In this document: piece by piece, positions 56,280-63,510 of the stretch
How positions within the stretch are numbered: position 1 is the stretch's first letter
Layout of the letters: every line of letters starts with the position of its first letter
From: Spiroplasma endosymbiont of Cantharis nigra
GTDB taxonomy: Bacteria > Bacillota_I > Bacilli_A > Mycoplasmatales > Mycoplasmataceae
Reading direction: 5' to 3'
Assembly (NCBI RefSeq): GCF_964019925.1
Contig: NZ_OZ026470.1
Coordinates: 1,054,001 to 1,118,000, forward strand
Length of the DNA stretch: 64,000 bases
Position numbers and translations under genes: made by a program
The notes under the pieces: model-generated
Database searches by the model: none
What the model saw: only the letters and a program-made list of their open reading frames with translations
Told to the model about the DNA's origin: nothing

Positions 56280-57119
56280 ATGAATATTTATAAACTAAAA
56301 CAAAAATATGTACCATTAGTATTTAAATCAAATGACTTTAAAGAAATAATAATTCATGTAACAAATAAATCTGATTTTAACTTTTTAACTGATATGTCAT
56401 TATCAAAAAGTGAATTAGATTTATTTTTAAAAATAACTAAAATATTTTTGGAAACTAAAAAACCTCTTGCTTATATATTGAAAAATAAATATTTTTATAA
56501 GTATGATTTTTTTGTAAATGAAGATGTTTTGATACCAAGACAAGAAACAGAATGTATAGTTGAAGAAGTTATAAAATATGATCTTAAAAATAAAAATTTA
56601 TTTGATATATGTTGTGGAAGTGGTTGCATAGGTATAACTTTAAAAAACTTACAGCCTGAAGCTAATTTATATTTAACTGACATTTTACCAGAAGCTATTA
56701 AAGTTGCAAAATTAAATTTAGAGAAACATAATAAAAAGGCTAAAACTTTTATATCTGATTTTCTAAATATTTTTGAAGAGACTAAGATAACTCCTGATTT
56801 TATTACAATTAATCCTCCTTATATTAAATTATCAGATTTACATATTCAAAATAGTGTTAAAAATTTTGAACCTCTTTTAGCTCTTTTTGCAAAAGATGAT
56901 GGTCTAGAATTTTATAAAATATTAGTAAATAAATTAGATTTCCTATTTCAATTAAATAGTAAATTAGTTATTTTTTGTGAGTTCGGTTTTGAGCAAAAGG
57001 AAGAATTAGAAAGTATTTTTTCTGGAAAGATAGTAAAATATAATATAGATTTCAAAAAAGATTATTCAAATAATTGAAGAATGTTTATAATTACTTCTAA
57101 GGAGATTTATGGAAAATAA
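56280..57119 (+). CDS. prmC: Release factor glutamine methyltransferase PrmC
   Basis: Methylates the Gln of the RF1 GGQ motif; 279 residues. Substrate-loop DVLIPRQETECIVEEV, SAM loop FDICCGSGCIGITL and catalytic NPPY (INPPYIKLSDL) are present. Co-located with its substrate gene prfA. A TGA Trp near the C-terminus (NNWRMFIITS) must be read. Confidence 0.94.
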
Positions 57120-58425
57120 TAGGGATAAATTTAAAATAGATAAATTTAAAGTTAACAATAATTTGGTATTTAAATTTTTATTGCTTTTTTTAATTTTATC
57201 TATTCAGGCAATAACTTTTCTTGTTATAATAAATATTAATAATTCTCTTAAATATTACTTAAATCACTTGGATGTTGTTAAAACTAACTTTGGTAAAAAC
57301 CTAGTAGTTAGTCAATTTGAAATTGAAACTCTAATGTGAGTATCAATATCTTTTTTAATTATTGGTTTTATATTAATTGGATTTTTAAAGTTATTTTTAA
57401 GACAACAATTTTCAAATTATTATAAGGCTTTGTATATTATGATAATAGCAATGTTTGCAGTTCTTTCAATTGTTCTAGAAGCAATTTCTGAGTATTCTTA
57501 TTCAAAATTTTATAATCTTTTTGACTTTTTATCTCAGAAGGATAACTCAATTTTTGAATCGGAAGCAATAAAAGAAATGCAAGAGGTTTTTTATAGTATG
57601 TCCATAAAGAATACGGGTAATAAGTATAAGTGAGCATCTGATAGTACTACATGATGATTAGCTGTTATTAAAATCATAGCAGTAATACTTTTTTTAACTA
57701 TTTGATTTAAAAATCAGCAGTATAATAAAGTAGCAATAAAACGTAGTAATTTTAAAGAAAATAGTGGATCTAAATTTAAAGAGTTAGTAAAGAAATTTTC
57801 TTTAAATAACAGTAAAAATATCTCATTTTGATTAATTATAGCAACAGCTTTAGTTTTTCTTCCTCCTCTAGCATATATAATTAATATGACTATTTTTGGA
57901 ACAAAAATGAATTCAATGCTTAATTGAACTTTTATTGTTAAAGATTTATATAAGTCCGTTACATATAATGGTATTTCCATAGAAGAAATGAATATCACCA
58001 ATTCCTATTTTGCAATTAAATTTCTACCTATTATAATTTCTAGCTTTTTAATGGCAAGCATTTTTATTTTTATTACTGCTTATATTAAAAATTGAAATAC
58101 TTCAAAATCAACATTTACTTTTCAATTTATTATTTTATTAATTGAAATATTATCTGTTTTAGTTGCCATTACATATTCAAGTCATCAAGCACAAAAAATA
58201 ACTAACTTATGAAATAATGGAACTTTTAAAGTTAATCCTAAGGCTCTATCTTTTAATTATTTAAAAAATACATATGGGTTTCCATTTGATAATAATAATT
58301 TAATTTCAGAACCTTGAATGAGTGGTTTAAAATATATTTCACAAACAATAATAAGTCTGAGTTTTTTATCAACCATCTATACAATTCTTTTTATAAAATA
58401 TAAAAAAATTCAAAATAATATTTAA
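57109..58425 (+). CDS. Polytopic membrane protein, unknown function
   Basis: 438 residues; the start overlaps prmC by 11 bases. About eight hydrophobic segments, e.g. KFLLLFLILSIQAITFLVII, SISFLIIGFILIGFL and LIIATALVFLPPLAYII. Soluble loops between them are basic. No transporter motif was recognised. Several TGA Trp codons. Confidence 0.78.
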
Positions 58426-58700
58426 TTATTATTTTAGATTTTATCTTTACTGGATCAATTTGTTCTAGAGATAAAAGTGCAGTATTTTGTGTTATAATAA
58501 CTTTATAAAATAAATAAATAAAAAAGATGGGGTTTTTAAATTATATTTAGCAGCTTTTAATAACTTCTTCTTTTTAATTTTGCAAAATTACTAATAAAAA
58601 AAGTAATATATCATATCAAACTATCTATTACATTGCAATAAAAGAAGTAAAAAACTTTAAAAAATATGGTATAATAATTTTGGCATTAGGAGGTTATAAT
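58426..58700 (+). promoter_or_regulatory. Intergenic region with hairpin and promoter
   Basis: A long imperfect hairpin (TTTTATCT near 58439 with AGATAAAA near 58474) may end the previous gene. TATAAT occurs at 58493-58499 and again at 58670-58675, the latter about 12 bases before an AGGAGG site and the next ATG, giving a very short leader. No gene seen. Confidence 0.45.
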
Positions 58701-60374
58701 ATGTATTTAAATCCATTTGAAAGGATGAAAAAACAACGTGAGGAAGATGAAAAAAGAGTCTTGGAAGAAAGAAAAGAACAGGAACGATTAACAAAATTAG
58801 GAACTCAAATGGGATTTATAGATTATAATCATTATCCGGAATCATCTTATAAAAATAATATAAATCCTTCAAAAAATAATTATAGTAATAAATATACAAA
58901 TATAGAATCTCAAGAAAATAATTATTTATATAATAAAGCCGAATCTGATAAATACTTTGAAAATAATTTTGAAGATTTTGAAGAAAAACATTTTGCAAAT
59001 TCGATATCTCCTGAAAAGGGTTTAAAAAGAGAAAATGCTTTTTTAGAACCTCAAGTGTATAATCAATCAGAGAAAAATTATTTTAATGAAAATTTTGAAA
59101 GAGCTTATGATGAAAGTAATCAAAAGGTTTTAAAACTAAATGAGATTTTTGAAAATGAAAATAGTGGATTAATAATATCAAACACAAAAAGTAAAAATTT
59201 AATTACAGAGTCAAAAAATTTAAATAATAAAATAATATCAAAAGATAAATATATTTCTTTGAAAAATAAAAGGGAATTATTTTCAAAGAATACATTAATG
59301 GTAAATCATCCAGAATTATTAAATGATATGAATAATGAGAATTTGATTTATATAGATTTACAAAAAATTGTTATATATTCTTCACCTTGCTTATTCTTTT
59401 TAAAAAAATTTATAAATAATTTACCTGAAAAGATTAGTTTAGAAGATAAGAAGATTTTATGAGAAAGAACTTCTGTATTGCTAGCAGCAACAGATTGAGG
59501 TAAGACTACATCTGAAATTGATGATATTTTAGACGATTTAAATATTACAAATGATCCAGAAAAAATGTTTATTAATGAGTTTATTAATTTATTGGATTCA
59601 TATAACTTTAATGAAAAAATGAATATAGTAATAACTAATACAGAGGGAATTGATTTGAATAAGATTTTATTAATTAATGAGTTTATAGCAAAGTCCTTAA
59701 TTAAAATACCTGGTTTATCTTGTAGAATGAATCTTGATTCAAAAGTTATTGATATTAATAGAATTGATGAAATATCTGAAAACTTTGATTATGTTATATT
59801 TGATGGGGTAAATTCTAATGAAGAATTTAATCTAATTGAAAATAATTTAGACAAGGATTTTAAATTAAACAAATATAAGAATGAATCTTCTAATTTTGAA
59901 AAAGTTAATATCCAAAATCAGGAGTATAATAAATTAAATTTTTTAATAGAGAATGAAACTATTCAACAACAAGAAGAAAATTATGATCCAGGAATAGATT
60001 CAATTTTAAGAATTAATATCGATGAGTTTATTGAAAAACAAAGAAATGAAATGTTAGATCAAAAAAAATTGGAAGAACATGAAATTCTAAAAAGAAAAGT
60101 CAATACTGAATTTAATCCATCAATTCTTTCAAACAATGAGGTTGTAATTGATAGTTCAATTACTCCTTCTGAAGGAAGAAGAAGATTTCAGGCTCCTTCT
60201 TACAGAAAAGAGGGTGTTGAAATACAAGAGTCCTATAAAGAAATAGATAAGAATTTAAACTTATTAAGAAGAGGTCCAATTAGTATTGAAAACACATTTA
60301 GTAATAAAGTAAATCAAGATAAAAATACAAAACAAATTTCAGTTCCTGGTAGCTGGAATCAATTAAAAAAATAG
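58701..60374 (+). CDS. Large low-complexity protein, unknown function
   Basis: 557 residues starting MYLNPFERMKKQREEDEKR, with AGGAGG 7 bases upstream. The N-terminal 40 residues form a charged coiled-coil. Residues about 45-190 are Asn/Glu/Lys-rich and probably disordered. A more ordered middle (about 210-400) has hydrophobic segments such as LIYIDLQKIVIYSSPCLFFL. A basic tail (EGRRRFQAPSYRKEG) is near the end. No signal peptide or membrane helix. It lies 12 bases before a large membrane protein, so a shared complex or cytoskeletal role is possible but unproven. Confidence 0.7.
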
Positions 60375-60386
60375 GAGGAAAACAAT

Positions 60387-62786
60387 ATGTTCGCTATATT
60401 TATTATATTTGCATGGTCATTAACCTTAGTAGCGTCTGTATCACTAATAGTATTTGCTACTTCTGCAATTATGTTATTATTGACATCAGCAAATCCACCA
60501 GCAATTATTACAAAAATTTTAAATATTTTCACAGAGCCATTATTTGGTTCAATATTTGGTTCAAATGGGAAGCCCAATATTTCAAATATTGGAAAACCTG
60601 AATTTAATGAAAAACCAATCTTAATTTGAATTGTAGTTTCAATAGCAATAGCAATAGTATTAATTGTTTTATCAATTATAGAACTTGTTAGATTGAGAAA
60701 ACATCAAAAACTTTCAAAGCCATTTGTTAAAATAACTTTATTAGCTATTGCAGTTGTTATTTTATTAACAGGGCAATTAGTATTCTTTGTTGCTTCAATG
60801 TTAATTTTTGCAGCAGTTGTATTATTAGAAGTAGTACTATTTGATTCAGTCGCTTTAAATAACTATGCTGAAGAAAGAAATTTAATTTCAATTTATAGAG
60901 AAGAAAGAAAATTTGAAAAAGAGGTAACAAAAGAGGGAAAGTTAATTGGCAACGTAGAATTGAGAAACCAAAAAAAGGTTTCCCAAAAAGAAAACGAACA
61001 AAACAAAAGAAATGATAACTCTGCGTTGCCTATTTTAAATGAAACTCAATTAGATAGCTTCTTTAAAGATACAAAAAATAAAAAATATTATTTAAAATGA
61101 AAAGAGTATAAAACAAAATTGGAAATTAAAAGAGTTCAAATTGAAGAAAACTTTTATTCATTTGAAGATGATAAAAAATCTGAAATTGTTAGAAAATTTA
61201 ATTTTAATGTAATTAGACTTAATAAGCTAGGTAAAAAAATAAAAATACCTGATGACTATCAAGTAATGCACTTGGATCTAAATAAGCTAGTAGATGATAA
61301 TTATCCACAGACTTCAGTTATTTTTAAAGATAACATTAATGAAAAAATAGAAGATAGTTTGAATGAAATTGAATTTGATGAAAATTTTATAGAAGGACAA
61401 AAATCTAAGGCCATTAATATGTCTGTTGAACAACTTGAAGAAATAGATTTACCATCTAATGTAACCAGTGATTTAATATATCAAGATTTTAATTTACAGC
61501 AACCAAAAAGTAATGAGGGAATTATTGTTGAAGATATTGGATCTTCAAATAATAATCAAATAATTATTTCTGATGTTAAAGAATTTTCTGATATTACAAA
61601 AGATTCTTCAAGTAGTTCTGAAATTATTAGTGATAAAATTGAAACTAAAAAAGAAGAAGATTTAGATATGATAGATCTTCCTAAACTAGAGTTTAGTGAA
61701 TTTAACCAAAATTTTGATGGCCCATCAGCAAAGGCAATTAATATGTCTATGGAAAAGATTATAGAAACTAATTTACCAGTGAAATCAAAAGAAGATATTG
61801 ATTCTCCTAACTTTGAATTTAATGATTTAGAATTAAATAAGCGTGAAAATTTAGAAGGAAATGTTTTAAAATCTGATATTTTGGAGCAATCAACAATTAG
61901 TGAGAAATTAGCTAGAGCTGTTAATATGGATATAAATCAATTATTTGAATCTTCAAATACAAATATAGATTCAATATACTCTGACTTTAATTTTAAACAA
62001 TCAGATTTGAGCCAACAAATAGTAAAAAGTGATTCAAATATTATAGAGAATTCGGCTAAGTCTTATATTACTTTACCTCCAAAAATGAGTTTGGAAGTGG
62101 ATAATCAAAAAGATACTCAAGTAGAAGATACAGAAAAGAATTTTATATTTGAAAATATTGAAGAAAAAAAATCTAATAAGTTGGCAGAAGAAAATATATT
62201 AAAAACAAATATTAACCAATCAGATTCTAAAGAAAGCGTTTATGCAAATCAAAACAGTTTTAATGAAGATTTAATTACAGAAAGCAAAGAGACTAATGAG
62301 TTAATTCCAGATAACTATATACAAGAAAATTTATTTAGTAAAAATCAATTAATTGCAGAAGAAGTTAATTGAAGTCATGAAATAAATTTAGAAGAAAATA
62401 AAACTAATAAATTTAATAGCTCTATAAATGAACATAATGAAAGACATTTATCTGATAATTATGATAATAAGTATGAAATTAATAAAATTAGAGAGCAGTT
62501 AGTTTTGGAACAACAAAATTTAGCAGCAAGTTATAGTTCAAAAATTTTAGAGTTTGAAAAGAAAAAAATAAGTTCTATTGAAGAAAGAATATTCAAACTT
62601 GAAAATTTATTAGAGAGATTAGAAACTAAAATTATTAAAGAAAATATGGTTTCATATGACTTTAGAAGTGTTTCAAGTCAATTAGAATCTATTTCAAAAG
62701 TTGTTAGTGAGTTAAATAATAACAATCCAAGGAATATTATTAATTCTTTAACAACAAGATATGAATATAATAAAAGTAATGGTTAG
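60387..62786 (+). CDS. Large membrane protein with A-[IV]-N-M repeats
   Basis: 799 residues in one open frame once TGA is read as Trp. Three or four membrane helices lie in the first 152 residues (about 2-32, 80-100, 115-152). A long acidic/Asn-rich cytoplasmic part follows, then a C-terminal coiled-coil (about 690-780: LEQQNLAASYSSKILEFE, ERIFKLENLLERLE). In the cytoplasmic part a motif recurs: KAINMSVEQLEE (~341), KAINMSMEKIIE (~449), RAVNMDINQLFE (~509), with similar flanks (YQDFNLQQ, YSDFNFKQ). Strong AGGAGG start. I do not recognise the family; a scaffold between membrane and cytoskeleton is a guess. Confidence 0.75.
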
Positions 62787-62826: not shown

Positions 62827-63510
62827 ATGATATATGATTTAACAGATTTAATTTTTAGAGATGATAATTTTAATTATATAATTCAAAATGATATTGAAAT
62901 ACCATTGTACTTACAAAATTTTATAGGAAAAGATAATAAAATTAATTTACCTTTTGTTAGTCTAATATTAGAAAAAAACTTTCCTTACATTCACAATAAA
63001 TTTATAAAAAAAGATTTAGTTGATAATTCAATTAAGCAGGGAATATGTGTTCACAATATGATTTCACATTCAATTAAAGATAGGAAAGACTTTAAATTAA
63101 ATTTGAACATATTAGACTGTAAAAATTCAAATCATATAAATATTGCAAAAAGAATAATTACTGAGCTAAATTCATTTATATATAAATATAATATTGATCA
63201 AATTTATTCTGAAAAAACTTATTTATATTTGGGTTATGATTGCAATTATCTTGGAACTATTGACATAATTTTGAAATCGAAAGATACTTATTACATAATG
63301 GATATAAAAACCAGTAGAACTAATTTTGTTGATAAATATAATGCACAATTATTTCTATATAAAAAAATGTTTGAAAATGCTACAAAAAAAATTGTAGAGA
63401 GTTGTTTCATACTTAATCCAAGAGAAGATAGAATTTTTATGGAGTATTTGCCAATTTCAAAAAATGAGCAAACTAAAATAATATCTTCAATAAAAAATAT
63501 AAAATTTTAA
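62827..63510 (+). CDS. PD-(D/E)XK (RecB/Cas4-like) nuclease
   Basis: 227 residues, start ATG with AGGAGA. The core motifs of RecB-type nucleases are in order: GTIDIILK (metal Asp), YYIMDIKTSRTNF (D-x-K) and QLFLYKKM (the Q-x-x-x-Y motif). An upstream ICVHNMISHSI may supply the His. There is no helicase domain, no cysteine cluster for a Cas4 Fe-S centre, and no CRISPR nearby. It stands alone between unknown membrane-associated genes and lemA. Role unknown; DNA repair or exclusion are both possible. Confidence 0.8.
   Translation: MIYDLTDLIFRDDNFNYIIQNDIEIPLYLQNFIGKDNKINLPFVSLILEKNFPYIHNKFIKKDLVDNSIKQGICVHNMISHSIKDRKDFKLNLNILDCKNSNHINIAKRIITELNSFIYKYNIDQIYSEKTYLYLGYDCNYLGTIDIILKSKDTYYIMDIKTSRTNFVDKYNAQLFLYKKMFENATKKIVESCFILNPREDRIFMEYLPISKNEQTKIISSIKNIKF

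Follow-up and report, generated by a model that had tools for sequence, protein, structure and literature searches.

Proteins A and B are uncharacterised products of adjacent genes in the window (the whole 64,000-nucleotide stretch of Spiroplasma DNA analysed here); they are always paired, and almost all lineages that possess canonical MreB and Fib have them. A has a hydrophobic N-terminal region, a tail carrying a repeated module and a conserved C-terminus, and we propose tentatively, putting the chances not far below even, that it is a membrane-tethered multivalent scaffold that works with B in the cortex of helical spiroplasma-type cells. This would entail anchorage of A in the membrane, multivalent docking through its tail, a complex between B and A, and a cortical or cytoskeletal role. 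The pair is a more useful object than the module alone, and bears on the question of how the spiroplasma ribbon gains its hold on the membrane and its polarity.

Domain anatomy of protein A and its repeated module

The elements of A in the window are listed below.

60387..62786, + strand: protein A, ORF of 799 aa (translation table 4), with orthologues in 39/60 family genomes
60387..60860, + strand: predicted four-TM membrane domain, residues 1-158 (hydropathy, AlphaFold helices, invariant residues)
60846..60956, + strand: predicted juxtamembrane cytoplasmic helix, residues 154-190, ALNNYAEERNLISIYREERKFEKEVxKEGK, the best conserved stretch of A
61074..61280, + strand: helical domain of ~70 aa (residues 230-298), common to the tails of all lineages (iterated profile, AlphaFold hairpin)
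61374..61538, + strand: AINM module copy 1, residues 330-384 (profile 1.5e-22)
61698..61862, + strand: AINM module copy 2, residues 438-492, degenerate in its second half (profile 1.4e-15)
61881..62036, + strand: AINM module copy 3, residues 499-550 (profile 4.9e-21)
62466..62783, + strand: predicted C-terminal coiled coil (694-778) and terminal helix with a T-x-R-x-x-Y-N tip (AlphaFold helices)

The ORF includes three TGA codons read as Trp (code 4). A preliminary description of this stretch had the ORF, its coordinates, the N-terminal membrane region and the coiled-coil C-terminus right, as judged from the ORF itself, hydropathy and AlphaFold. In the AlphaFold model (27-row alignment; mean pLDDT 55, with structured parts at 80-90) the predicted TM helices span residues 2-33, 75-104, 112-127 and 131-203, the last extending into the cytoplasm; a helical hairpin at 229-284 (pLDDT ~85) forms part of the ~70-aa domain, and the C-terminus is modelled as a coiled coil at 694-778 followed by a helix at 781-797. 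The tail is predicted to be disordered, with weak isolated helices at modules 1-3. Isolated short helices within a disordered tail are typical of docking motifs, and their prediction here supports a docking function.

The invariant residues, M1, F2, W10, R102, P112, K115, E148 and D153 in the membrane domain and N159, E163, R164, N165, E177, E179 and G184 in the juxtamembrane helix, cluster on the presumed cytoplasmic face. The juxtamembrane helix is 97-100% identical to that of orthologues with which A shares 61-92% identity overall, and the C-terminal coiled-coil part is 61-71% identical to that of G029, as against 23% for the spacer before it. The ~70-aa helical domain was found by iterated profile in the tail of every lineage, including tails encoded by separate genes. 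On sequence comparison, the universal parts of A are thus the TM domain, the ~70-aa helical domain and the coiled coil, and the AINM module is not among them. A matched no Pfam family at E<0.001 (the best match, at 0.02, was to an unrelated DUF), and Pfam, NCBIfam and PDB sequence searches with A, B and their profiles gave no family, curated cut-offs never being reached. A literature search by a set of locus tags found no mention.

Matches to the strict pattern [KR]A[IV]NM[SD]xxx[LI] lie at residues 341, 449 and 510, so that the three copies placed earlier at about 339, 447 and 507 stand, both by profile and by shuffling: when the tail was shuffled 200,000 times, a single match arose in just five cases and two or more in no case. 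The weaker fourth copy that had been noted near residue 556 was dropped, as the module profile finds nothing there. The repeating unit is a module of ~55 residues, [LE]-E-x-F-x-x-x-K-M-A-R-A-[IV]-N-M-D-[LI]-x-Q-L-x-E-S, a linker of 6-10 residues and [IV]-Y-x-D-F-N-F-x-Q-x-D-L, aligned and profiled from units of 17-18 genomes. The Y-x-D-F-N element described after the motif belongs to this same module in copies 1 and 3, as [IV]Y-x-D-[FL]-N-F, and is degenerate in copy 2. Over 27 units, A13 and N15 are invariant, and L21 and D38 are conserved in at least 90%.

The repeat is no longer visible at the DNA level in the window copies, and exact tandem DNA repeats with a period of 243-375 nt persist in A of 11 relatives from the window's genus (g1, 20 genomes), showing that the array is a real and still-duplicating repeat. 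Tandem duplication thus both enlarges and homogenises the array, and that of the window is old and diverged. With presence defined as a profile match at E<1e-3, A carries one to six modules in all 20 g1 genomes, so that one refuting outcome named in the preliminary description, a motif not conserved in orthologues, did not arise; strict A[IV]NM is found in 17 of the 20, and the remainder have variants such as AINLD. One genome of the neighbouring genus g6 (G006) has two weak copies in A. A family-wide profile search gave nothing better than E 0.01 outside A, and in the window's own genome matched only the three copies in A. The idea of a motif common to other proteins was dropped: outside g1 A there are only the weak G006 copies and sub-threshold noise.

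Profile searches found no module in A of the S. citri/eriocheiris genus, which has MreB and Fib, or in g4, g5 and g9, which keep A or its tail together with the same MreB/Fib set. Its absence from these lineages marks the module as a lineage-specific array and not a universal link to MreB or the ribbon. In g9 an unrelated repeat array lies where g1 has the AINM array, and g8 shows no exact DNA repeat in A. The tail thus appears as one anchor displaying quite different repeat arrays by lineage.

The variable copy number, the exact DNA repeats of the 11 relatives, the unrelated g9 array at the same place and the lack of exact repeats in g8 could all be accommodated if the repeats arose incidentally, through tandem duplication within a disordered spacer, tuning length only and binding nothing specifically. 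We consider this improbable, because the same positions (A, N, L, D and IYxDFNF) are kept between copies and between species whose spacers cannot be aligned; between G000 and G029 the modules are 43-64% identical and the spacers that follow them 23-39%. An anchored, disordered, coiled-coil-ended protein with a repeated conserved module fits the multivalent binding proposed in the preliminary description.

Protein B, the locus and the divided forms of A

The gene directly upstream of A encodes protein B.

58704..60374, + strand: protein B, 556 aa, with A-adjacent orthologues in 39 genomes and forming one ORF with A in G046
59205..59819, + strand: conserved domain of B, predicted alpha/beta fold resembling that of P-loop NTPases, with no P-loop in the usual position (AlphaFold pLDDT 85.8, Foldseek, hhalign)

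B lies upstream of and adjacent to A in 39/39 genomes with A. In the window its TAG stop, 12 nt before the A start, overlaps the A Shine-Dalgarno sequence (TAGGAGG), and in G046 the stop position reads AAG instead of TAG (L049 5280-5370), giving a single B-A ORF of 1708 codons. Adjacency, overlap and the read-through ORF together support the pairing of A and B; the A Shine-Dalgarno and ATG are retained in G046, so A may also start independently there.

Foldseek matches to the B domain are led by P-loop NTPases (ORC/Cdc6, RdrA, ABC and KaiC), weakly, with a best E of 1.3e-3; the AAA+ matches at the head of the list have TM-scores of 0.30-0.46. By hhalign, B is collinear with mollicute KAP NTPases over 162 columns, again weakly (E 0.005, probability 7%), and there is no Pfam KAP match. 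In its modelled order of strands and helices B weakly resembles KAP and AAA+ P-loop NTPases but differs in lacking a P-loop: none of the 40 B proteins has the Walker A motif GxxxxGK[ST] behind strand 1. A GKT-like match in 14/40 was rejected as a Walker A, since it lies in a loop that follows a helix and is modelled with low confidence, and g8 does not have it. As modelled, B is probably soluble, with an NTPase fold but without the usual mode of nucleotide binding.

The constant adjacency, the stop overlap and the in-frame B-A ORF would also be expected if the modules docked B, or another soluble g1-specific partner, and A served as a platform concentrating B at the membrane. We regard this as unlikely for the modules themselves: the B domain is conserved also in lineages without the AINM module, and any core contact between A and B is more likely to be made through the universal helical or TM domain.

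In several lineages A is divided. In the three g9 genomes the A gene covers the membrane domain only, and the gene that follows it encodes the tail; its product, rich in LFDKxGxPVY-type repeats, measures 3111-3280 aa in the two genomes whose sequence extends to the end of the gene. The g4 tail has an ORF of its own, which overlaps A. In g5 the A membrane domain was not found by tblastn-type and profile searches, and B and a tail-like gene remain. The separate tail genes of g9, g4 and g5 show, by eye, no N-terminal signal peptide or TM segment; taken with the fusion of soluble B to the N-terminus in G046, these soluble tails point to a cytoplasmic location for both termini. A is accordingly best described, conditionally, as anchored by four putative TM helices with both ends in the cytoplasm. 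Its TM2-TM3 loop has six K/R and no D/E, in keeping with a tail on the inner side of the membrane.

The divided genes have further features of their own. The g9 tail gene following the short A (L083 in G047, L085 in G049, L056 in G048) encodes dozens of ~15-aa LFDKxGxPVY repeats; the A helical domain occurs in it three times, and a coiled coil at the C-terminus is accompanied by a CxxC/His-rich end. In G004 (L055 5968-6077) the short A gene and the tail gene share ~110 nt, the 3' end of the former and the beginning of the latter being read in different frames, and the overlapped frame still encodes tail residues known from fused relatives. The C-termini of g4, g8 and g9 tails (for example L055 4203 and L059 6620) carry a CPxC/CxxC motif (CPLCKK, CPYCGAKV, CEHCGKTYKY), compared with T-x-R-x-x-Y-N in g1.

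The locus adjoins prfA, prmC and ywlC. Protein C (57109-58425) was excluded from the system, because genera without canonical MreB and Fib have it as well. In most relatives ywlC (Sua5/YrdC-type) lies between C and B; it is missing from this interval of the window (58426-58703) and from close relatives. Downstream of A, the gene at 62828-63510 has a PD-(D/E)XK/Cas4-like C-terminal match at 3e-6, below the cut-off, and this PD-(D/E)XK-like (PDE) gene stays beside ywlC even where A and B are absent.

Distribution relative to MreB, Fib and RodZ

A and B are present in 39 of the 60 family genomes, and one g5 genome adds B with a tail-like gene; these 40 genomes have MreB matches of ~1e-128 and Fib of at least 61% identity. 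Both proteins are absent from 18/18 genomes without canonical MreB and Fib. The searches thus turned up no orthologue in genera lacking these two, so that the other refuting outcome named in the preliminary description, orthologues in non-helical Mollicutes with no MreB, did not arise either. Among the ten A/B-less loci examined, nine read prfA-prmC-C-ywlC-PDE, with A/B excised exactly between ywlC and PDE, and the tenth is also without C and PDE. As they are confined to spiroplasma-type relatives and absent from round ones, A and B are good candidates for a part in cell shape or swimming.

The correlation with MreB and Fib is suggestive only. In a FastTree locus tree including only sampled members of the 18-genome group, those members form one clade beside g4, and the branch losing fib and mreB lost ~15% of core genes (PMC6117150), so that the co-loss is a single phylogenetic event on a gene-losing branch. 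Two g10 genomes have MreB and a divergent Fib (34-43%) with A/B absent, which counts against a cortical or cytoskeletal role for the pair and against a link from the motif to MreB or the ribbon. The retention of MreB without A/B in g10, the many unrelated genes lost on the same branch and the position beside prfA, prmC and ywlC would suit another membrane-linked process, such as one at the division site or in chromosome tethering, that spiroplasmas happen to keep. To this we assign a low probability, given the clean absence of A/B from all genomes without MreB and Fib: cell division and chromosome segregation go on in those lineages too.

RodZ is the usual membrane anchor of MreB in walled bacteria. 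Its N-terminal HTH (HTH_25, PF13413) was over the cut-off in 0/60 family genomes and in 11 of 14 controls. The family-wide absence of this HTH leaves an anchor role vacant, which we count in favour of a cortical role for A/B. The same absence, the confinement of A to lineages with canonical MreB and Fib and the suitability of repeated motifs for a filament lattice would also favour direct binding of the modules to MreB or Fib, with A as a RodZ-like link between ribbon and membrane. We find this distinctly improbable. The module is absent from the S. citri/eriocheiris genus and the three other lineages with the same MreB/Fib set, as described above. In G048 fib has an in-frame TAA (G048:C1:366301-367833) and in G037 it is split over two frames (G037:C1:424287-425815), with the mreB genes and A/B intact in both, which speaks against Fib as the partner of A. 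S. sabaudiense, for its part, is reported to be fib-less yet swimming (PMC9663586).

The composition of the ribbon also bears on this. In S. eriocheiris 16 ribbon proteins were identified in the 0.8% Triton-insoluble fraction (PMC5289999, Table 1). The A orthologue of this species (985 aa, at ~71 kb) lies just upstream of a 468-aa gene matching SPE-0075, a match on which G016 was taken as S. eriocheiris; SPE-0075 is among the 16 and A is not, although the list covers stained bands only and low-abundance proteins could escape (PMC5289999). The omission of A counts against a cortical or cytoskeletal role as well as against direct ribbon binding. The preliminary interpretation is thus partly supported overall; the direct link from motif to MreB or ribbon that it proposed is possible and is not indicated by a motif so lineage-specific.

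Among genomes without canonical MreB, those of G002, G003, most of g7, g11 and g12 have PF06723 matches of 1e-40 to 1e-61, compared with ~1e-20 in G001 and G056. These are possibly divergent MreB-like proteins.

A possible cortical role and comparison with known systems

In the scaffold model that we favour, four TM helices and the charged juxtamembrane helix would hold A in the membrane with both ends cytoplasmic, and the conserved helical domain and C-terminal coiled coil would probably serve self-association or binding of a core partner. Between these two lies the fast-evolving disordered tail. In g1 this tail shows one to six two-part modules, each with a putative short amphipathic helix, x-x-K-M-A-R-A-[IV]-N-M-D-L-x-x-L, followed by [IV]-Y-x-D-F-N-F; as repeated docking sites these could add avidity to the binding of a cytoplasmic partner that is itself polymeric or clustered. 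A and soluble, NTPase-like B would form one unit of the cortex of spiroplasma-type cells, possibly at the contact between the membrane and the internal ribbon or the polar end of the ribbon.

A resembles RodZ in being an integral membrane protein with a cytoplasmic part, and the same job is proposed for it, but RodZ has one TM helix and an MreB-binding HTH whereas A has four predicted TM helices, no HTH and no Pfam match. In Mycoplasma pneumoniae, HMW1, HMW2 and P65 are disordered, acidic, repeat-bearing, coiled-coil scaffolds of the terminal organelle. They are likened to A by general description, as cytoplasmic scaffolds in a wall-less cell, and unlike A they are not four-TM proteins.

Reconstitution experiments place limits on any role for the pair. 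Two MreBs confer helicity and swimming on a synthetic minimal mycoplasma with no A/B supplied (PMC9710875), so that A/B are not needed for a minimal motor. M. capricolum with MreB1-5 and Fib forms kinking helices with no tip core and no efficient swimming, and the authors suggest that firm polar attachment of the ribbon may be lacking (PMC9663586). A/B could conceivably be dedicated to attaching the internal spiroplasma cytoskeleton to the membrane or to making it polar, and might for instance supply the tip core or polar attachment that mycoplasmas given MreB and Fib do not form. The tail, which is exchanged between lineages for an AINM array, another repeat array or a giant protein of its own, would then act as a tunable multivalent linker; this more specific version we hold to be unlikely. 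Their pairing and their precise excision in lineages without MreB and Fib make A and B concrete candidates for inclusion in MreB/Fib reconstitution.

One of the published proteins of the detergent-insoluble S. eriocheiris ribbon, SPE-1201, is a Spiroplasma-only transmembrane protein of similar length to A (769 aa, 2 TM; PMC5289999). It was rejected as the A orthologue on map position, being numbered near the mreB cluster, away from the orthologue at ~71 kb.
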